A stretch of DNA of 42,023 bases from Desulfovibrio aminophilus (GTDB lineage Bacteria; Desulfobacterota; Desulfovibrionia; Desulfovibrionales; Desulfovibrionaceae): positions 1-42,023 of the forward strand of contig NZ_JAMHGA010000035.1 of the NCBI RefSeq assembly GCF_023660105.1, written 5' to 3'. The notes beneath the pieces were generated by a model. The model worked only from the letters and a program-made list of their open reading frames with translations. It was not told the origin of the DNA and did no database searches. The position numbers and the translations under genes were made by a program. Below, in pieces: positions 1,565 to 14,308 of the stretch. Numbering within the stretch: position 1 is the stretch's first letter; the number at the start of each line of letters is the position of its first letter.

Positions 1565-2628
1565 TTCTTCCTCCGCAGGGCCTTGAGGATGGGTTCCTCG
1601 AAGTCTTCGGGCGAGGGCATGTCGCCGGGGTAGACGCCGAAGAAGCCGGAGTCCGCGTGCGCCCGGACGGCCAGCCGCACGTCGTCCACCATCTGGCCCA
1701 GGTTGTGCTCGATGGTCAGGAACTTCTTGCCCGCCTTGGCCAGCCTGGCCAGGGCCGCGTCCGGGAAGGGGAAGAGGGTGATCGGTCGGAACAGGCCGAC
1801 CTTCTTGCCCTTGGCCCGCAGCTTGCGCACGGTGGTCTTGGCGATGCGGCCGATGGAGCCGTAGGCCACGACCACCAGCTCGGCGTCCTTGACCTGGAAT
1901 TCCTCGGCCATGATCTCGTCGCGCATGGCTTCGTATTTTTCCTGGAGATGCCGGTTCTGCCCGGCCAGGGCGCCGTCGTCCAGGAACAGGGACTTGATGA
2001 TGCGCGGCTTGCGGGTTCCCTTGCCCTCCAGGCGCCAGGACCTGCCCTCGGCCTTGGAGACCTTCACGGCCGGGCGCATGGCCACGGGCTCTTTCATCTG
2101 GCCGATGATGGCGTCGCCCAGGACGAGCACGGGGTTGCGGTACTTGAAGGCCAGGTCGAAGGCCAGCATGGTCAGGTCGAAGGCCTCCTGGACCGTGCCG
2201 GGGGCCAGGACCAGGGTGCGGTAGTCGCCGTGGCCGCCGCCGCGCGTGGACTGGTAGTAGTCGCCCTGGCTGGGACCGATGTCGCCCAGGCCCGGGCCGC
2301 CCCGGTTCATGTTCACGATGACCGCCGGGATCTCGCTGCCCGCCATGTAGGAGATGGCCTCCTGCTTGAGGGACACGCCCGGGCTGGACGAGGAGGTCAT
2401 GGCCCGGATGCCGCAGGCGCCGGCGCCGAGGAGCATGTTGGCCGCGGCCACCTCGCTCTCGGCCTGGACGAACTCGCCGCCCGCGTCCACCATGGCCTTG
2501 GACATGAACTCCGGGATGTCGTTCTGGGGGGTGATGGGGTAGCCGAAGAAGCAGCGGCACCCGGCGGCCAGCGCGCCGTGGGCCACGGCCTCGTTGCCCT
2601 TGAGGAACTTGCGCTCGTTCTTGGTCAT
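1561..2628 (-). CDS. korA: 2-oxoacid:ferredoxin oxidoreductase, alpha subunit (KorA/VorB type)
   Basis: The 355-aa alpha subunit. It carries the conserved GYPITPQNDIPEFM segment, an EVAAANM stretch, a TSSSSPG motif and the C-terminal swivel-type domain (AYGSIGR...PITLFPFP). Proteins of this length and sequence are annotated either as 2-oxoglutarate synthase alpha or as the VorB subunit of 3-methyl-2-oxobutanoate:ferredoxin oxidoreductase. The sequence alone does not separate them. The ATG at 2628 shares one base with the stop of the small ferredoxin subunit gene. An in-frame upstream extension exists but would run through that ferredoxin gene, so MTKNERK is the start chosen. Confidence 0.92.
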   Translation of the reverse strand: MTKNERKFLKGNEAVAHGALAAGCRCFFGYPITPQNDIPEFMSKAMVDAGGEFVQAESEVAAANMLLGAGACGIRAMTSSSSPGVSLKQEAISYMAGSEIPAVIVNMNRGGPGLGDIGPSQGDYYQSTRGGGHGDYRTLVLAPGTVQEAFDLTMLAFDLAFKYRNPVLVLGDAIIGQMKEPVAMRPAVKVSKAEGRSWRLEGKGTRKPRIIKSLFLDDGALAGQNRHLQEKYEAMRDEIMAEEFQVKDAELVVVAYGSIGRIAKTTVRKLRAKGKKVGLFRPITLFPFPDAALARLAKAGKKFLTIEHNLGQMVDDVRLAVRAHADSGFFGVYPGDMPSPEDFEEPILKALRRKK

Positions 2629-2867
2629 CACGCGCCTCCCTTCTTGGCCGGTTTCCTGCTCCGCCAGACGGTGATCGCCAGGTCCGGGCAGATGGTGGCG
2701 CAGGACGCGCAGCCCGTGCACTTGGCGCGGTCGGCCTCCGGCGCCTCGGCCACCTTGTATCCCTGCTGGTTGAACCGTGACGACTGCACGATGATTTCCA
2801 CGGGGCAGACCGTGGTGCACAACAGACAGCCCTTGCACAGGGCCTCGTCGACCTCTATCCGCGACAT
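2628..2867 (-). CDS. korD: 2-oxoacid:ferredoxin oxidoreductase, delta (2x[4Fe-4S]) subunit
   Basis: A 79-aa dicluster ferredoxin subunit. Two classic cluster motifs are visible: Cys11-Cys14-Cys17-Cys21 (last Cys followed by Pro) and Cys50-Cys53-Cys56-Cys60 (also Cys-Pro). It relays electrons from the TPP site of the alpha/beta subunits to soluble ferredoxin. First gene of the four-gene kor cluster on the minus strand. A GGAGG-type ribosome-binding site (as AGGAGGT) lies just upstream of its ATG. The 70-nt gap to the queA stop shows no obvious terminator, so read-through from the queA group is possible. Confidence 0.93.
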   Translation of the reverse strand: MSRIEVDEALCKGCLLCTTVCPVEIIVQSSRFNQQGYKVAEAPEADRAKCTGCASCATICPDLAITVWRSRKPAKKGGA

Positions 2868-2937
2868 GCAGACCTCCTGGGCGGGGACGCCGGAAAAGGG
2901 CCTGGGATCAGGCTTCGTCCGGGCTTCCCCGCGATTG

Positions 2938-4022
<1,085 letters not shown>

Positions 4023-4026
<4 letters not shown>

Positions 4027-5090
4027 GCTGGGGTTCCGGGCTGTTGCATGGTCAGGCAGTGGAGCGTGCCCCGGCCGAAGACGAGGTCCAGGGCGTGGAT
4101 GCCGATGACCGGCCGGTCGAAGAGTTCGGCCAGGATGCCCAGGGCCACGCGGTCGTTGGGATCGTTGAAGGTCGGCGCGAGCACGCAGGCGTTGGCGATG
4201 TAGAAATTGGCGTAGCTGGCGGGTAGGCGGATTCCCCGGAAGACCACGGGCTCGGGCATGGGCAGGGGCACGATCTCGGGCCGGGAGCCGTCCTCCAGGC
4301 GCACGTCCTGGAGCCGTTCGCGGTTCTCGGCCAGGGCCGCGTGGTTCACGTCCGAGGGGTCGTCCTCCTGGGCCAGGACCAGGGTGGTCCGGTTCACGAA
4401 GCGGCAGAGGTCGTCCACGTGGCCGTGGGTGTCGTCGCCCGCGACGCCTTTGCCCAGCCAGACCACGTTGGAGACGTTGAAGGTCTCGCGGAAGACCTCC
4501 TCGTAGTCCCTGGCCGTGAAGCCGGGGTTGCGCACCTGGACCCTGCGGTCCAACAGGCATTCCTCTGTGGTCAGCAGGGTTCCCGCGCCGTTTACGTCGA
4601 TGGCCCCGCCTTCGAGCACCACGGGGCGGCCGTTCCTTTTCACGTGAAACAGGGGCAGGCCCAAGGTCCGGGCCGCCACGTCCGGCGCCAGGGCGTCCTT
4701 CGTGTGCGTCGGGTACTTGGCCCAGGCGTTGAAGCGCACGCGGGCCACGGCCGTGTTTCCGGTCTGGTCGCGCACGAAGAGCGGCCCGGAGTCGCGGACC
4801 CAGGAGCGGTCCACCGGGCAATCCACGAACCGTATCCGGTCCAGGTCCGCCCCGCAGTCGCGCAGCCTTCTCGCGGCCTCCTCGCGCACGGGCGGGGAGT
4901 GGACCAGGATGCGCACCTCCTCGCCCCGGGAGATGCGCCGGGCCATGTCCGCGAAGGCGAAGCGCGCGCCCTGGAGACGGCCGGGCCAATCCAGGGTGCT
5001 GGAGGGCCAGGCCAGCCAGGTCGCCTCGTGCGGCTCCCACTCGGCGGGCAGCCTGTAGCCCAGGGCCGCCGGGGATTCCGGGCGGGTCAT
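4023..5090 (-). CDS. aguA: Agmatine deiminase
   Basis: A 355-aa agmatine deiminase (agmatine to N-carbamoylputrescine plus ammonia), of the guanidine-modifying (peptidylarginine-deiminase-like) fold. Visible landmarks are the N-terminal PAEWEPHEATWLAWP, WVRDSGPLFV, the LEGGAIDVNG loop, the DDTHGHVDD acid/His segment, and the C-terminal HCLTMQQP with catalytic Cys345. The last motif usually reads GGGNIHCITQQ, so GRGTLHC is a mild variant. Four-base overlaps on both sides join it to aguB and queA. A parS-like 16-mer lies within the coding sequence at 4636-4651. No arginine decarboxylase gene, the usual source of agmatine, is in the window. Confidence 0.94.
4636..4651. promoter_or_regulatory. 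parS-like site inside aguA
   Basis: CTTTTCACGTGAAACA matches the near-universal chromosomal parS consensus TGTTTCACGTGAAACA at 14 of 16 positions, with the mismatches confined to the first two bases. It is inside the agmatine deiminase gene, about 11 kb from the two upstream sites at the parA gene. Intragenic parS copies are common in other bacteria. ParB binding here is inferred. Confidence 0.6.
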
Positions 5091-8350: not shown

Positions 8351-8752
8351 ATGCCCAGGAATGTGAGCCCGGATATGACCGGCGGGTGGATCGGAACGGT
8401 GACGCTGCCCAACGACATGGGCGACGACGTCACGTTCACCGGCCGGCTCGTGGCCGAGGACATGCATTTCAACAACAGCAACGGGATGCTCACGGTGGAG
8501 AAGGTCTATGAGCGCCAGGAGGGCGGCACGGCCTACGGCGTGATCTCGGCCATCGGGCACACCCGCGACCGCAGGGCCTATCTCCTGGAGGAGAAGGGCG
8601 AGACCTGCCTGGTGAACAACGGGCATTTCAGCCTGGAGATCCCCACGGACGAGCTTTTGGTTCTTCTTTCCCTGGCCATTGAGGCCGAGCGGGACGCCAG
8701 CGCGGATTCCGAGTGCGACCACATGATCCGCAAACTCGCCGCCAACGACTGA
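8351..8752 (+). CDS. Hypothetical protein
   Basis: A 133-aa protein I do not recognise. The ATG at 8351 has GGGAG six bases upstream. The composition suggests a small beta-rich fold: an N-terminal GGWIGTVTLPNDMGDDVTFTG segment, a central part with alternating hydrophobics (LTVEKVYE, YGVISAIG), and an acidic helical end rich in Glu, Asp and Ala. There is no signal peptide or membrane segment, so it is probably cytoplasmic. It lies 26 nt after the small HTH gene and ends at a strong terminator, so the two likely form a bicistronic unit and may be functionally linked. Confidence 0.7.
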   Translation: MPRNVSPDMTGGWIGTVTLPNDMGDDVTFTGRLVAEDMHFNNSNGMLTVEKVYERQEGGTAYGVISAIGHTRDRRAYLLEEKGETCLVNNGHFSLEIPTDELLVLLSLAIEAERDASADSECDHMIRKLAAND

Positions 8753-8776
8753 GGCTGCCTCCTCAGGTCCCATAGG

Positions 8777-8812
8777 AAAGGGGCGCTCCCAAGCGGAGCG
8801 CCCCTTTCTTTT
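8777..8812 (+). terminator. Rho-independent terminator (probably bidirectional)
   Basis: A 13-bp perfect stem, AAAGGGGCGCTCC (8777-8789) with GGAGCGCCCCTTT (8795-8807), loop CAAGC, followed by TCTTTT on the plus strand. On the minus strand the A-rich flank also gives a short T-run, so it can end both the plus-strand gene at 8351-8752 and the convergent phosphofructokinase gene. Confidence 0.9.
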
Positions 8813-8828
8813 CGTCTCGCGGGCGTTG

Positions 8829-10163
8829 TCAGCAGACGGCCTTGCGGACCTCGGGGTCGAGGATCTGGCCCGTGGATTCGAGCACGGAGCGCCAGTAGTC
8901 GGATTTGACGTTGAGCTTCTTGCGCTTGCGGGTGACGAGGTGCAGGGGCAGGTGCACGTAGCGCGAGAGCAGGCGGCTGACGACCATGCCGGTCTTTCCG
9001 GCCATGGCCGCGTGGACCGCGTTCTGGCCCAGGAAGCCGCAGTAGACCCGGTCGTTGGCGTTGGCCGGGACCGAGCGGATGATGTAGCTCGGGTCGATGA
9101 ACTTCAGGGTCACGTCCATCTCTTGTTTCTTGAAGTATTCCTTGATCTTGTTGATGAGCAGGGTGGAGACGTCGCAGAGCACGGGGTTGCCCGAGGCGTC
9201 CTTTTCGCCGCTGATCTCGCAGTGGTCCTGGCCCGCGCCCTCGGCCACCACGATGACCGCGTGGTGGCGGGAGCGCAGCCGCGCCTCCAGGGAGGGGAGC
9301 AGGCCGTGCTCGCCGTCGAAGTGGAAGGGCGACTCGGGCACGAGCACGAAGTTCACTTCCTTGAGGGCCAGGGTGGCCTGGGCGGCGATGAAGCCGGATT
9401 CGCGGCCCATGAGCTTGACCAGGCCGACGCCGTTGTTCACGCCCACGGCCTCGGTGTGGGCCGACTGGATGGCCTCGGTGGCCTTTTCCACGGCGGTGTC
9501 GAAGCCGAAGGACTGGGACACGAAGTTGATGTCGTTGTCGATGGTCTTCGGCACGCCGATGACCGAGATGCGCAGGTTGCGCTTGCTGATCTCGTCCACG
9601 ACCTTGGAGGCCGCGCGCATGGTGCCGTCGCCGCCGATCATGAACAGGGCGCTGATGTTCATGCGCTCCAGGGCGTCCACGATGTCCTCGGGGGGCTGGT
9701 GGCCGCGCGAGGAGCCCAGGATGGTGCCGCCGAACTGGTGGATTTCCGAGACGGTCTTGGGGGTCAGCTCGATCACGTTGTGGCCGAAGCTGGGGATGAA
9801 TCCCTGGAGGCCGAAGCGGATGCCCAGGACCGAGGCCACCTGGTAGTTGTGGTGGCAGGTCATGACGATGGCGCGGATCACGTCGTTGATGCCCGGGCAG
9901 AGGCCGCCGCAGGTGACGATGGCGCACTTGGTCTTGGAGGAGTCGAAGTAGAGGTGTTCGCGGGGCCCGGCCTTCTCCACGTCCAGGGTGAGGGTCTCGT
10001 CCGGGCCCAGCTCGTCCAGTTCCTCCTCGGTGAGGATGAAGGGCTGGAGCTGCTCGTCGCTGGCGAAGCGGCAGTGGCGCAGGGGAGTGGGGATCTTGGC
10101 CTTGCCCAGGCTGGGGATGGCGACATCCACGACGGGCTTGGCCGTGTTTTTCTTGGGAGCCAT
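8829..10163 (-). CDS. 6-phosphofructokinase (long, TP0108-like subfamily)
   Basis: A 444-aa cytoplasmic phosphofructokinase that phosphorylates fructose 6-phosphate in glycolysis. The GGLCPGINDVIR motif lies near residue 86, GGDGT at 177-181, PKTIDND at 205-211 and MGRESGF after residue 250. The Gly after GGD (Gly180) is the residue associated with ATP use, whereas Lys206 in PKTIDND is the form typical of PPi-dependent enzymes. This Gly/Lys combination is known from the ATP-using long clade found in plants, protists and spirochaetes. ATP is therefore the likelier donor. About 70 residues precede the usual N-terminus, also typical of this clade. It is transcribed alone. Confidence 0.88.
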   Translation of the reverse strand: MAPKKNTAKPVVDVAIPSLGKAKIPTPLRHCRFASDEQLQPFILTEEELDELGPDETLTLDVEKAGPREHLYFDSSKTKCAIVTCGGLCPGINDVIRAIVMTCHHNYQVASVLGIRFGLQGFIPSFGHNVIELTPKTVSEIHQFGGTILGSSRGHQPPEDIVDALERMNISALFMIGGDGTMRAASKVVDEISKRNLRISVIGVPKTIDNDINFVSQSFGFDTAVEKATEAIQSAHTEAVGVNNGVGLVKLMGRESGFIAAQATLALKEVNFVLVPESPFHFDGEHGLLPSLEARLRSRHHAVIVVAEGAGQDHCEISGEKDASGNPVLCDVSTLLINKIKEYFKKQEMDVTLKFIDPSYIIRSVPANANDRVYCGFLGQNAVHAAMAGKTGMVVSRLLSRYVHLPLHLVTRKRKKLNVKSDYWRSVLESTGQILDPEVRKAVC

Positions 10164-10270
10164 GCGGTGTCCTCCGTTCAGTCCGGCGCGCCGGATTTCC
10201 TTCCTTTGTACGTCAAGGACGGAGAGGGCGCAAACCATTCGGCGCGGCCGGCCGGATCGCGGCCTCGGCG

Positions 10271-12184
10271 TCAGCGCGCCTTGAGGAAGGCCTCGACCCG
10301 CTCGCGCACGTTCCTTTCCAGGTTCCGGTAGAACAGGGCGTAGTCGTAGCCGTGGTAGAACCCCGGAAAGGGCGTGGGCGTCAGCTCCGGGTCGGCCGGG
10401 TCCACGATCAGCGCGCCGTGGACGGTCTGGGCCCCGGTGAAGCGGGGGACCTCCTTCAGGCCGTCGGCCGTGGGGAAGGCCGCGCCGAGGTTGGCCTCGC
10501 GCGGGACGTGGCGCGTGTCCAGGTTCATGCTCAGGGGATTCACGCCCACGGCGCCGGGGCGCACGATGCTCATGCCGGGGGCGGCGGACTGGGAGTTGTA
10601 GCTCACGATGCAGCCGGTGCGGTCCGGGGCGTCGCACATGGCGAGTTGCGGGAAGCGAGTCAGGTCGTCGCGGGTCACGGACCAGCCGATGAGATAGGCG
10701 GCCACGAGCTTCTTGCGCGGGGCGGGATCGCGGAAGCGCTTTTCGAGCAGCTCAAGCAGCAGGTTGGAGCCCTGGCTGTGCCCGGCGAGGATGAACGGGC
10801 GGCCGCCGTTGTCCTGGCGCAGGTAGTGGTCGAAGGCCCGCTCCACGTCGGAATAAGCCGCGGCCAGGGCCTGTTCGCGGTCCGGGGCGGGCGCTTCCAG
10901 GACCTTGATGTGGGCGTCGCGGTAGCGCGGGGCGAAGACGTTGCAGGAGGCGGCGAAGACAGAGGCCTGCCCGGCCAGGCTGCGGCGCACGAGGGGGTTG
11001 GCCCGCGAGGACTCGATGCTCTCGTTCCAGGTGTCGGGCGAGAAGCAGGTGGTCGGCGGGACGAAGAACACGTCCACGGGCTTGCCGCGCTCGGCGGGCG
11101 CGGGCAGGGCGGCCCAGTTCTCGGGCCGGTCGTAGTCCGGGGCCTTGGGCGTGGAGGCCGGGTTGAAGGCGTTTCGGGCGTCGAAGAGGGCGTCGATGTC
11201 GCCGGACAGGTCCGTGCGCCGGAGGTCGATCTCGCTGACCACGGACTTGGCGCGGGCCAGGGATCCCAGGTCGAGGGTCGCGATGGTCGGATTGTCCAGG
11301 GTGCGGAAGGCGATGCGGCGGTTGGCGAGGTCGGTGACGATGGTCCAGCGGGTGCAGCCGTCGGGGAAGATGGGCGGCACGGAGAGGACCTGAATGGCGG
11401 CGAAGCCCGAGCGGACGGCCTGCTCCGCGCTGTCCTGGTCCGGGAGATGCTTCCAGTGGAAGGCCCCCCGGACGAAGCGGTCCAGGGATTCGCCGGAGCC
11501 CGGGATGGGGCGGTCGCCGCCGAAGCCGTCGTAGCGGGACAGGCGCTTGAGCGAGGCGGCGTACACGTCGTTGGTCAGGACCGGCACGCGCGGGGCGCGG
11601 GTGATCGTCACGTCGCCGTCCAGGAACTCGACCACGGCCGAGTCGCCGCCGGCGTCGTGCAGGAAGAGGTGCAGGCGGATTTCCAGGTCCCGGGACGGAT
11701 TGGGCCCGACGCGGTAGCGGCCGGAGCGCAGGTCGGCCAGGGCCGCCTCCACGCTGTCCTGGGTGTCCAGGAGGTATTGGAGCAGGGAGGCGACGTCCAG
11801 TACGGGCGCGGAACCGGCCGGTGGAAAGCGCGAGGATTCCAGGAAATAGGTGCCGACCTTGAGCCCCGCGTCATTGAGCCCGTCCACCCCGGCGGCGAAG
11901 GCCTGGGCCCCGGCGGAGCCGGGCAGGACGACGTTGAAGGTCACGTTGGCGCGGGAGGAGGTCCAGGCCAGGGGAACGCCATCGGGGGCGTGGAGGGCCT
12001 TCCTGGCGATGCCGGGCGGGCTGAAGCGCGCGAAGCCCTCGTTGATCGTGAAGTCGAAGGTTCGGGCCGAGACGAGGGCGGCCCCGCCCTTGTGGATGAA
12101 GATCTCCGAACAGGCCAGGGCCGCGCCGTCCGAGAGGACGAACAGGCAGAGCAGGCAGACGATCAGCGACTGAAGCCGCTTCAT
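10271..12184 (-). CDS. Secreted two-domain hydrolase: choloylglycine-hydrolase-like Ntn amidase fused to DUF3089
   Basis: A 637-aa exported protein. Residues 1-24 form a signal peptide ending in ALA, so signal peptidase would expose Cys25 as the N-terminal nucleophile. Cys25, Arg41 and Asp44 have the same spacing as the catalytic Cys, Arg and Asp of penicillin V acylases and bile salt hydrolases; Asn205 and Arg239 are candidates for the other two active-site residues. This Ntn domain spans about 25-345. Residues about 365-637 match the DUF3089 alpha/beta hydrolase family, with nucleophile elbow GHSQGS (Ser470) and the AYLIGW strand. Likely substrates are N-acyl amides such as acyl-homoserine lactones plus an ester, but this is inference. 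The fusion is unusual. No operon partner. Confidence 0.85.
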   Translation of the reverse strand: MKRLQSLIVCLLCLFVLSDGAALACSEIFIHKGGAALVSARTFDFTINEGFARFSPPGIARKALHAPDGVPLAWTSSRANVTFNVVLPGSAGAQAFAAGVDGLNDAGLKVGTYFLESSRFPPAGSAPVLDVASLLQYLLDTQDSVEAALADLRSGRYRVGPNPSRDLEIRLHLFLHDAGGDSAVVEFLDGDVTITRAPRVPVLTNDVYAASLKRLSRYDGFGGDRPIPGSGESLDRFVRGAFHWKHLPDQDSAEQAVRSGFAAIQVLSVPPIFPDGCTRWTIVTDLANRRIAFRTLDNPTIATLDLGSLARAKSVVSEIDLRRTDLSGDIDALFDARNAFNPASTPKAPDYDRPENWAALPAPAERGKPVDVFFVPPTTCFSPDTWNESIESSRANPLVRRSLAGQASVFAASCNVFAPRYRDAHIKVLEAPAPDREQALAAAYSDVERAFDHYLRQDNGGRPFILAGHSQGSNLLLELLEKRFRDPAPRKKLVAAYLIGWSVTRDDLTRFPQLAMCDAPDRTGCIVSYNSQSAAPGMSIVRPGAVGVNPLSMNLDTRHVPREANLGAAFPTADGLKEVPRFTGAQTVHGALIVDPADPELTPTPFPGFYHGYDYALFYRNLERNVRERVEAFLKAR

Positions 12185-12311
12185 GTGCGCTCCCGGGCTG
12201 GGGGAAGCCCCGCGCGGGTTCCCCTGTTGGCGAGCGGCCCGGGCGGAGCCACGCGGGAGGGAGGCCCGGGCGGTCAGGCGGGCGCTCGGCGGCGTCCGTC
12301 GCGATCGCGGC

Positions 12312-13328
12312 TCAGCCGCGCCAGGCGTTGATCTCCGTGACCGGCAGGGACTCGATGGAACGGGCCAGGTCCTCGGCGCTGGCGGTGGCCGCGCCCACCT
12401 GGGCGACCACGTGCCCGGCGGCGTGGTTGGCCAGGGTGCAGGCGGTGAGCAGGTCCGCGCCCGAGGCCAGGGCCAGGGCCAGGGTGGCGATGACCGTGTC
12501 GCCCGCGCCGGTGACGTCGAAGACCTTCTGGGCCACGGTGGGGATGTGGCGCACGGTGGCCGGGGACTCGAAGAGGGCCATGCCGTCCGCGCCCAGGGTC
12601 ACGAGCAGGTGCCTGCAGCGCAGGCGCTTGAACAGGGCCTCTCCGGCGGCCAGCACGCTCTCGCGGCCGCTCACGGCCAGGCCCGCGCCCTCGCCCGCCT
12701 CCTTGGTGTTCGGGGTGAGCAGGTCCACGCCCTTGTACAGGTCGTAGTTCACGGGCTTGGGGTCCACGAGGATGAGCGGCCGGTCGGGCAGGGGGGTGAC
12801 GAGGTCCATGAGCCGGGACATGAATTCCCGGCAGATGATGCCCTTGCCGTAGTCCGAGAGCACGATCACGGGCGCCTGGGACAGCACGTCGCGCAGGGAG
12901 GAGAACAGCTCGTCCAGGAGGTGCTGGGGCAGGGGGTCGGGCTGCTCGGAGTCCACGCGGACCACCTGCTGGTTGTGGGCGATGATGCGGGTCTTGCGGG
13001 TGGTGGGCCGGGCCGGGTCCTTGAGGATGCGGGACTCGATGCCCGCCTCGCCGGTCATGCGCACGAGGGCCGCGCCGTCGGGGTCGTCGCCGGTGCAGCC
13101 GAAGAGCACGGGGCTGCCGCCCAGGGCGGCGATGTTCTGGGCCACGTTGCCCGCGCCGCCCAGGACGCGCTTTTCGCCGGTGACGCGGACCACGGGCACG
13201 GGGGCCTCGGGGGAGATGCGGTCCACGGTGCCCATCATGTAGTGGTCGAGCATGAGGTCGCCGATGATGCAGACCTTGCGGCCCTTGAGCGCGGCCGCGG
13301 CCTTCAATTGCGCTTGCTTGGAGAGCAT
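12312..13328 (-). CDS. hldA: D-glycero-beta-D-manno-heptose-7-phosphate kinase
   Basis: A 338-aa PfkB-family sugar kinase of the RfaE1/HldE N-domain type, phosphorylating heptose 7-phosphate at C1 in ADP-heptose synthesis for LPS core. Evidence includes GDLMLDHYMMGTVDRISPEAPVPVV near residue 23, the GGAGNVAQNI motif, and the PfkB signature DVTGAGDTVIATLALAL near residue 268. It lacks the C-terminal adenylyltransferase domain present in bifunctional HldE, so a separate HldC is expected elsewhere. It lies 38 nt downstream of parB on the same strand. That gap holds a weak CCTTG-AAAAA-CAAGG hairpin but no clear terminator, so co-transcription with parB is possible. Confidence 0.9.
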   Translation of the reverse strand: MLSKQAQLKAAAALKGRKVCIIGDLMLDHYMMGTVDRISPEAPVPVVRVTGEKRVLGGAGNVAQNIAALGGSPVLFGCTGDDPDGAALVRMTGEAGIESRILKDPARPTTRKTRIIAHNQQVVRVDSEQPDPLPQHLLDELFSSLRDVLSQAPVIVLSDYGKGIICREFMSRLMDLVTPLPDRPLILVDPKPVNYDLYKGVDLLTPNTKEAGEGAGLAVSGRESVLAAGEALFKRLRCRHLLVTLGADGMALFESPATVRHIPTVAQKVFDVTGAGDTVIATLALALASGADLLTACTLANHAAGHVVAQVGAATASAEDLARSIESLPVTEINAWRG

Positions 13329-13366
13329 CCGTTATGCCTTGTTTTTCAAGGTTGTTTTTATTGTGG

Positions 13367-14308
13367 TCAGTCCAGCTCGGGATCCTGGACGCCGAGCAGG
13401 CGCGCCAGCTCGGCCAGCCGCTCCCGGCTGGAGAAGGCGATGGTCAGCTTGCCGAAGTCCGGGGTGCCCTGGAGGCGGACCTTGGCGTCCAGCTCTCCGG
13501 CCAGCCGCTTCTGCAGCCCGCTGAGCACCGGGTCCTTGGCGCGGGCGCGGCGGGGCCTGGGCGCGGCCTCCTCCTCGATCTCGGCCTCGGGTTCGGGCTC
13601 GGGCTCGGCCAGGGACAGGGAGCCGGTGGCCTTCCAGAGCCCGGCCTCCTCCTCGGCCTGGCGCACGGTGAGGTTGCCCTTGAGGATGCGGCGGTGCAGG
13701 CCGGAGGCGGCCTCGGGGTCGGAGATGGCCAGCAGGGCCCGGGCGTGGCCCGCGCTGATGCGGCCCTCGCGCACGTCCTTCTGGATTTCCGGGGAGAGGT
13801 TGAGCAGACGCAGGGAGTTGGCCAGGGCCGGGCGGCTCTTGCCGATCTGGCGGGCCAGCTCCTCCTGGCTCAGGCCGAACTGGTCCAGGAGCTGCTTGTA
13901 GCCCTCGGCCTCTTCCAGGGCGTTCAGGTCCTCGCGCTGGAGGTTTTCGATGAGCGCGATGGCCAGGCTCTCGCGGTCGTCCATCTCGCGCACCAGGGCG
14001 GGAATTTCGGCCAAGCCGGCCATCTTGGAGGCGCGCAGGCGACGTTCGCCGGCCACGAGTTCGAAGGCGCCGGGCTCGGCCAGGGGGCGCACGAGCACGG
14101 GCTGGAGCACGCCCTGGGCCTTGATGCTGGCGGCCAGGTCGTCCAGGGCGCGGGGGTCGAATTCCTTGCGCGGCTGGTGCGGGTTGGCCGTGATGGCGGC
14201 CAGGGCGATGTTCTTGACCTCGCCGGGAGCGGCGGCCTCGTCTTCGGGCTTGAGTCCGCCGAGCAGGGCGTCGAGGCCCCGTCCCAGGCCCCTGGTGGAT
14301 GCGGCCAT
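13367..14308 (-). CDS. parB: Chromosome partitioning protein ParB
   Basis: A 313-aa ParB/Spo0J DNA-binding CTPase. It has box I NPHQPRKEF (about residue 48), the CTP-binding GERRLRA motif (about 107), the HTH QEELARQIGKSRPALANSLRLL (about 152) and a C-terminal dimerisation domain. The N-terminal GLGRGLDALLGG peptide is the conserved segment that stimulates ParA ATPase. It loads at parS and spreads to organise the origin region. AAGGAG lies 7 nt before the ATG. parA lies upstream on the same strand, but instead of being adjacent the two are separated by a gene on the opposite strand, so parB must have its own promoter or be reached by long antisense read-through. Confidence 0.95.
   Translation of the reverse strand: MAASTRGLGRGLDALLGGLKPEDEAAAPGEVKNIALAAITANPHQPRKEFDPRALDDLAASIKAQGVLQPVLVRPLAEPGAFELVAGERRLRASKMAGLAEIPALVREMDDRESLAIALIENLQREDLNALEEAEGYKQLLDQFGLSQEELARQIGKSRPALANSLRLLNLSPEIQKDVREGRISAGHARALLAISDPEAASGLHRRILKGNLTVRQAEEEAGLWKATGSLSLAEPEPEPEAEIEEEAAPRPRRARAKDPVLSGLQKRLAGELDAKVRLQGTPDFGKLTIAFSSRERLAELARLLGVQDPELD

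Follow-up and report, generated by a model that had tools for sequence, protein, structure and literature searches.

We examined a 42,023-nucleotide stretch of DNA from Desulfovibrio aminophilus (contig NZ_JAMHGA010000035.1; the whole stretch is called the window, and its genome G000), in which one gene at 10271-12184 encodes a choloylglycine-hydrolase-type N-terminal nucleophile (Ntn) amidase joined to a DUF3089 esterase-type domain behind a signal peptide. An original prediction, made from the letters of the window, had placed an open reading frame (ORF) at exactly these positions without naming its strand, which is minus; the translation also has C25, R41, D44 and the GHSQGS elbow with S470 where that prediction had put them. 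The plus strand over the same DNA holds an antisense ORF of 659 aa, and such frames are common in DNA of about 70% GC; the family scan covered the minus-strand frame. The gene and its parts are as follows, with residue counts taken from the aligned rows of each family.

10271..12184, minus: fusion gene, 637 aa, ATG start, GGGAG five bases before the ATG
12113..12184, minus: signal peptide, residues 1-24, ending in ALA and followed by Cys25; read directly from the sequence
11195..12112, minus: choloylglycine-hydrolase-type Ntn amidase domain, residues 25-330; Pfam CBAH and profile against PDB
12110..12112, minus: Cys25 codon, expected N-terminal nucleophile of the mature protein; Cys in 28/29 rows, Ser in 1
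12062..12064, minus: Arg41 codon; Arg in 26/29 rows, Lys in 3; Arg in the second fusion described below
12053..12055, minus: Asp44 codon; Asp in 24/29 rows, Glu in 5; Asp in the second fusion
11843..11845, minus: Phe114 codon; aligned with a Trp of 5j9r and, like its counterpart in penicillin V acylases, aromatic; Phe in both fusions
11570..11572, minus: Asn205 codon; 29/29 rows
11477..11479, minus: Arg236 codon; 29/29 rows
11141..11194, minus: junction and linker, residues 331-348; the C-terminal end of CBAH, then sequence that comes after the signal peptide where DUF3089 stands alone
10274..11140, minus: DUF3089 (esterase family XV type) domain, residues 349-637; Pfam and tree
10775..10777, minus: Ser470 codon in GHSQGS, expected esterase nucleophile; Ser in 58/60 rows
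10352..10354, minus: His611 codon, likely catalytic His; His in 58/60 rows, in an HxxD element as proposed for Est10
10343..10345, minus: Asp614 codon, candidate catalytic acid (the other candidate is Asp595); Asp in 59/60 rows

Two hydrolase domains behind one signal peptide

Pfam bore out both predicted domain identities, an Ntn amidase and DUF3089, and neither is a chance match. The amidase half matched CBAH (PF02275) over residues 25-306 at 50.5 bits, above the curated cut-off of 20.4 (E 3e-13), and has the catalytic Arg/Asp/Asn/Arg residues of that family at R41, D44, N205 and R236 (counts over 29 aligned rows, query included). It scored 26.1 bits against the bile salt hydrolase equivalog NF038245, for which the NCBIfam cut-off is 350. 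A phmmer search of solved structures matched choloylglycine hydrolases, with 5j9r as the best (E 2.1e-27), and when a profile of 18 CBAH rows was compared with PDB, query column 25 fell on residue 1 of 4wl2, 5j9r, 3pva, 2oqc and others, which puts Cys25 at the site of the mature catalytic Cys in solved enzymes. We take the column of Phe114 to be the Asn81/82 position of bile salt hydrolases. The window amidase thus described resembles Gram-negative-type penicillin V acylases and choloylglycine hydrolases (5j9r, 4wl2, 3hbc) in family, in the predicted N-terminal Cys after a signal peptide, in the Arg/Asp/Asn/Arg set and in the aromatic residue at the site of the 5j9r Trp, but unlike them it has a second enzyme at its C-terminus. 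Within PF02275 it belongs to a divergent subgroup, and its nearest stand-alone row is 46% identical. In bile salt hydrolases the catalytic set is given as Cys2, Arg18, Asp21, Asn81, Asn175 and Arg228, and in penicillin V acylases an aromatic residue replaces Asn81 (PMC8066178). Among the other CBAH genes retrieved, two loci hold tandem pairs of adjoining copies (L081:936-3270, plus; L076:1492-3670, minus), and viral contigs carried three CBAH relatives at 27-30% identity and no DUF3089 relative.

The leader reads MKRLQSLIVCLLCLFVLSDGAALA, directly before Cys25. The predicted export signal and exposed cysteine are both supported; ALA ahead of Cys25, and the match of column 25 to residue 1 of the solved enzymes, fit a probable signal peptidase cleavage before Cys25. 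The original prediction had called the protein secreted; a Sec-type signal leading to the periplasm stands, but passage across the outer membrane found no support and we prefer the word exported. A cysteine at this position could in principle mark a lipoprotein; the window reads AALA-C and lacks the classic Leu/Val/Ile at -3. Because the classic lipobox occurred in 0 of the 18 CBAH rows (a loose pattern fits 6 of 18, the window included), a lipoprotein fate for Cys25 appears less likely.

The esterase half matched DUF3089 (PF11288) over residues 370-535 at 199.8 bits, far above the cut-off of 23.4 (E 4.9e-59), and carries both the GxSxG elbow and the catalytic His of DUF3089/family XV proteins, the intact serine elbow being as originally predicted. 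Two members of this family are proven esterases: Est10, which is most active on C4 esters and inactive at C10 and longer (PMC4431682), and MGS0012, which also takes C4-C10 esters (PMC5341072). The window domain shares with them the GHSQG elbow and the conserved His; unlike them, it is preceded by an amidase and not by a signal peptide of its own, whereas Est10 has a putative one (PMC4431682). For the catalytic acid, the Est10 authors propose an HxxD triad element, whose equivalent in the window is Asp614 (PMC4431682), and mutagenesis of MGS0012 showed a Ser193/Asp360/His375 triad with the acid 15 residues before the His (PMC5341072); the nearest window counterpart of that Asp360 is Asp595. In genome G619, at L061 and L117, an in-frame TAG interrupts a DUF3089 gene.

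DUF3089 also occurs as a module of other large proteins. At L045:2169-4673 (minus) a single frame of about 830 aa carries it on the N-terminal side of a calcineurin-like metallophosphoesterase and a TIG domain (Pfam), and since DUF3089 lies in frames of 828-835 aa throughout L045-L048, the same architecture is probable in L046-L048, the Pfam domains having been assigned in L045 only. At L053:3369-5498 (plus) it is followed by a C-terminal autotransporter beta-domain, a possible cell-surface route for the esterase family. These proteins are like the window protein in using DUF3089 as a module of a larger chain; they differ in the partner and in having DUF3089 at the N-terminal side, where the window has it at the C-terminal side.

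The join and a second fusion

In the nearest stand-alone CBAH rows the sequence reaches a GDI motif close to the C-terminal end, and it is there that the window protein continues straight into its DUF3089 part. No second signal peptide is present at the join of the window protein; one would be expected to remain had two genes been joined by read-through, and its absence argues against that origin. A second full fusion was found in G862, a genome from another class of the same phylum, where contig 68 encodes at 2254-4155 a protein aligned with window residues 8-637 at 59% identity without stops (371/636 identical by BLASTP), with both domains confirmed by Pfam. Identity was spread over both enzymes (179/306 in the amidase, 182/289 in the esterase) and low in the linker (5/18). 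The mapped catalytic residues are common to both fusions, except that Asp595 is Glu in G862. In the trees, the amidase domains of the two fusions were sisters (support 100/98; 31 rows), as were their esterase domains (99/93; 54 rows, with 20 named loci left out). The ratio of nonsynonymous to synonymous substitution (dN/dS) between them was about 0.31 for the amidase and about 0.30 for the esterase, values that are rough given the high dS of 1.27 and 1.13. For G862, completeness is about 84% and contamination 3%, and the fusion sits on a contig of 5,602 bases, so the assignment of contig to genome is less sure than the sequence itself.

Because both domains are sisters, the linker is variable and dN/dS is about 0.3 in both halves, a single fusion event behind both proteins is the simplest reading of the sequences, and the two domains are most likely separately folded catalysts on a short variable linker. 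Counts of departures at columns conserved at ≥90% were also made, from alignments in which matched stretches shorter than 230 residues were excluded and rows more than 95% identical thinned; copies of the window gene (L001, L088, L127) were kept out of these counts, the residue counts and the trees. The amidase showed 3 departures (median 1, 28 rows), and the esterase lay outside the 12 highest of 59 rows and hence had at most 3 (median 1). These counts are not exceptional, and we rejected accelerated change of the fused domains.

We also considered that sequencing or assembly might have joined two genes. Close relatives do show no other fusion, as an artefact would have it. However, the join is in frame and lacks an internal signal peptide, the single open frame has codon usage close to that of its neighbours, and in the second fusion order and junction are unchanged; short of an identical error in both assemblies, the second genome refutes this explanation, to which we give next to no weight, and a frameshift or assembly join was rejected. 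The original prediction had named two separate reading frames in related genomes as the sign of such a join; no such arrangement was found at this locus, which is empty in both congeners, and in G862 the parts are fused in frame.

Whole-protein searches covered 59 relatives, 348 genomes of the class and 395 from the phylum, as well as 63 genomes from the class to which G656 belongs and 277 from that of G496, with overlap between sets; in the 348-, 395- and 277-genome sets scoring took in no more than 3 or 4 candidate stretches from each genome. Beyond the window's own genome, G862 was the only two-domain match among the matches listed for these sets, and it led us to reject the idea that the fusion is unique to this genome. 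No place covering 80% of the query was found in 72,556 plasmid records, and a scan of genome contigs returned a single locus, a DUF3089 relative. Among the retrieved loci of relatives, phmmer found both domains only in copies of the window's own gene, and none of 10 long-frame proteins run through Pfam (L045, L051, L052, L053, L054, L126, L029, L007 and the L110 pair) had both.

Locus and origin of the gene

The fusion gene lies between two genes that are syntenic in relatives and whose names, an RfaE-type sugar kinase and a 6-phosphofructokinase, we give as our own assumption:

12312..13328, minus: upstream neighbour, RfaE-type sugar kinase (rfaE)
8829..10163, minus: downstream neighbour, 6-phosphofructokinase (pfkA)
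10179..12294, no strand: segment absent from congener G001, in which the rfaE-pfkA gap is 75 nt

Both congeners, G001 and G002, lack the fusion gene, and at this locus rfaE adjoins pfkA in each; the flanks in G001 align with those of the window at 94% and 91%. The two genes are also neighbours in G006, G316 and G318, and the stretches fetched from G004, G007, G111 and G112 did not reach pfkA. Because the pfkA leader of G002 is similar to part of 10180-10235, the insert proper may stop closer to 10240. Since both congeners are empty and the rfaE-pfkA adjacency is found in other relatives too, the sequences make it most likely that the gene was inserted here in the G000 lineage after its split from the congeners, probably horizontally; the alternative is loss of the gene in both congeners.

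A foreign base composition was not seen: G+C content at third codon positions is 0.945, and codon usage is that of the neighbours. The codon-usage distance of the gene to the other window genes was 0.068, below that of each gene compared, with a pooled reference that includes one neighbour (GT) probably read in the wrong frame, whose own row we disregarded. Given this codon usage, the gene either came from a donor with a composition like that of the host or was not acquired very recently. Repeats in 10120-12340 were many but partial or short, and none was taken as a duplication or terminal repeat. When 8700-13400 was scanned for promoters and terminators, no promoter was predicted; the 3 predicted terminators compare with 2.5 in shuffles. 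A short element, CCTTGnCGTACAAnGG, lies upstream of pfkA both in the window (10203-10218, minus) and in G002 (L109, 3182-3197, minus) and is possibly a regulatory site; it was not seen in the rfaE-pfkA gap of G001.

What the two active sites may do

Both domains are under constraint and retain the catalytic residues mapped in them, so a two-site exported hydrolase is to be expected, and we favour, with some confidence, the reading that the protein is an exported hydrolase of acyl amides and acyl esters. Activity of both sites is suggested by these residues. After Sec export, signal peptidase would cut behind ALA and expose Cys25, whose thiol would attack amide carbonyls in the manner of penicillin V acylases and choloylglycine hydrolases; an amine or amino acid would leave, and water would then clear the thioester intermediate. 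The tethered DUF3089 alpha/beta serine hydrolase (Ser470, His611 and Asp614 or Asp595) would cut short to medium acyl or aryl esters, so that both catalysts would work in the periplasm or beyond. Their likely targets would be acyl conjugates such as N-acyl amines, N-acyl amino acids and acyl esters, with the two bonds belonging either to one amphipathic molecule or to two members of one substrate pool. That amide and ester bonds both occur in one substrate is plausible. The original prediction went further and had the two sites cut such a substrate one after the other; retention of both domains under constraint, and the neighbouring genes of G316 described below, lend this indirect support.

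Several points weigh against the two-site hydrolase. The esterase acid is split between candidates Asp614 and Asp595, the latter of which is Glu in the second fusion. Both fusions also differ from the DUF3089 rows at near-invariant positions, with Met at 553 in place of Trp (58/59 other rows) and an acidic residue at 423 (D423 in the window) in place of Gln (57/59), and the window amidase has Arg78 where all 28 other rows, and the second fusion, have Tyr. A close solved structure was not found for DUF3089, the best match being a thioesterase (E 0.005) around the elbow only, and single-sequence structure prediction of residues 25-637 had a mean predicted local distance difference test score (pLDDT) of 35, which is unusable. 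According to a 2024 classification paper, DUF3089 proteins may instead transfer acyl groups, with negatively charged substrates (PMC11878206). Lastly, because the gene is rare, its function would not be a core one.

The odd residues R78, D423 and M553 would suit a protein with a single working enzyme domain, its partner being a binding or structural remnant. The mapped catalytic residues are, however, intact in both domains of both fusions, dN/dS is alike in the two halves and the departures at conserved columns are not extreme, and we hold a remnant domain to be unlikely. A stronger contender, to which we lend appreciable but lesser credence, is that two independent scavenging hydrolases with unrelated substrates were fused only for co-export and equal dose; DUF3089 is joined elsewhere to other partners (L045 and L053 above), as expected of a mobile exported module. 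Against unrelated substrates stand two weak hints, namely that the pair was kept across a dS of about 1.2 and between classes, and that separate CBAH and DUF3089 genes adjoin in G316 (L110:11719-14090, plus, CBAH first). The G316 pair resembles the window fusion in families, order and strand; it differs in consisting of separate genes, each with a signal-like leader (judged by eye), and in that its CBAH belongs to a different branch of the tree. Of 36 genomes in the G316 genus, CBAH was found in 24 and DUF3089 in 22. From listed coordinates, one of 44 same-genome CBAH/DUF3089 pairs in 18 genomes was adjacent, with CBAH first and both genes on one strand, versus about 0.006 expected for this arrangement at 3,500 genes, an expectation that flatters the G316 pair because the pair was noticed first and tested afterwards. 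Together with the joint retention of the fused domains, the adjacent pair gives weak hints of a shared role. No common theme was seen among 15 neighbours of seven of the nearest stand-alone CBAH/DUF3089 genes. On the G862 contig, a single one, the fusion is preceded on the same strand by an alpha/beta hydrolase and followed by a Cupin/HTH regulator and then a fatty-acid CoA ligase (L155:3-5344, minus).

Within the two-site reading, the more specific claim that the protein is a two-bond deacylase, stripping both acyl chains of one acyl-amino conjugate (an ornithine-type lipid or an acyl-homoserine lactone) and spread between classes as one fused gene, is speculative and more doubtful than otherwise. 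The aminolipid version would have the esterase remove the outer, ester-bound fatty acid of an acyloxyacyl aminolipid and the amidase then strip the head group, ornithine or one like it, of its N-linked 3-hydroxy acyl chain, acting on the cell's own lipids or those of its neighbours. In ornithine lipids one fatty acid is attached by an amide bond and one by an ester bond (PMC12493201), and a Desulfovibrio is reported to produce such lipids by way of an OlsF homologue, chiefly when phosphate is limiting (PMC5193443). G000 encodes an OlsF-like synthase with Acyltransf_2 and Acetyltransf_5 domains (L136:1006-2835, minus), but its OlsF match of 393.7 bits is below the NCBIfam cut-off of 620, and OlsF-like genes occur in 7/11 genomes, both congeners included (in two pieces in G002), whereas among these the fusion is confined to G000. 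The ligase two genes downstream of the G862 fusion, on the same strand, also fits lipid turnover of this kind; the link is that of one 5.6 kb contig, and the characterised DUF3089 enzymes are reported to favour short chains (C4 for Est10, up to C4-C10 for MGS0012). On balance we regard aminolipid deacylation as rather improbable. An acyl-homoserine lactone likewise has one amide and one ester-like lactone, and a double quorum quencher would use the amidase to deacylate it and the esterase to open the lactone. Acyl-homoserine lactone acylases are relatives of the penicillin V acylases, some of which cleave these signals (PMC8066178). Lactone opening by DUF3089 proteins, however, goes without mention in the main text of the Est10 and MGS0012 papers, and a search of G000 for the LuxI family gave no match but was uninformative, as controls were equally silent; we think signal quenching improbable, with still less to commend it. 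Our preference stays with the two-site hydrolase of acyl amides and acyl esters.

The original prediction knew of no characterised example of this pairing, and this agrees with the open-access literature searched, in which we found no paper with both DUF3089 and choloylglycine, nor with both Pfam accessions. Within that literature the fusion architecture is new, and both component enzymes are of known kinds. The fusion locks together two families with many members that have no assigned natural substrate, and the pair has been kept over long divergence; because the families are joined and the pair retained, the search for a substrate is narrowed to a molecule or pool that should offer both an amide and an ester. 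The characterised members considered here were mostly assayed on industrial or artificial substrates, and the fusion provides two separable active sites with which to probe the true roles of DUF3089 esterases and of penicillin V acylases from the environment. Should the two-bond reading be true, the protein would be a single-protein route for removing aminolipids or signals.

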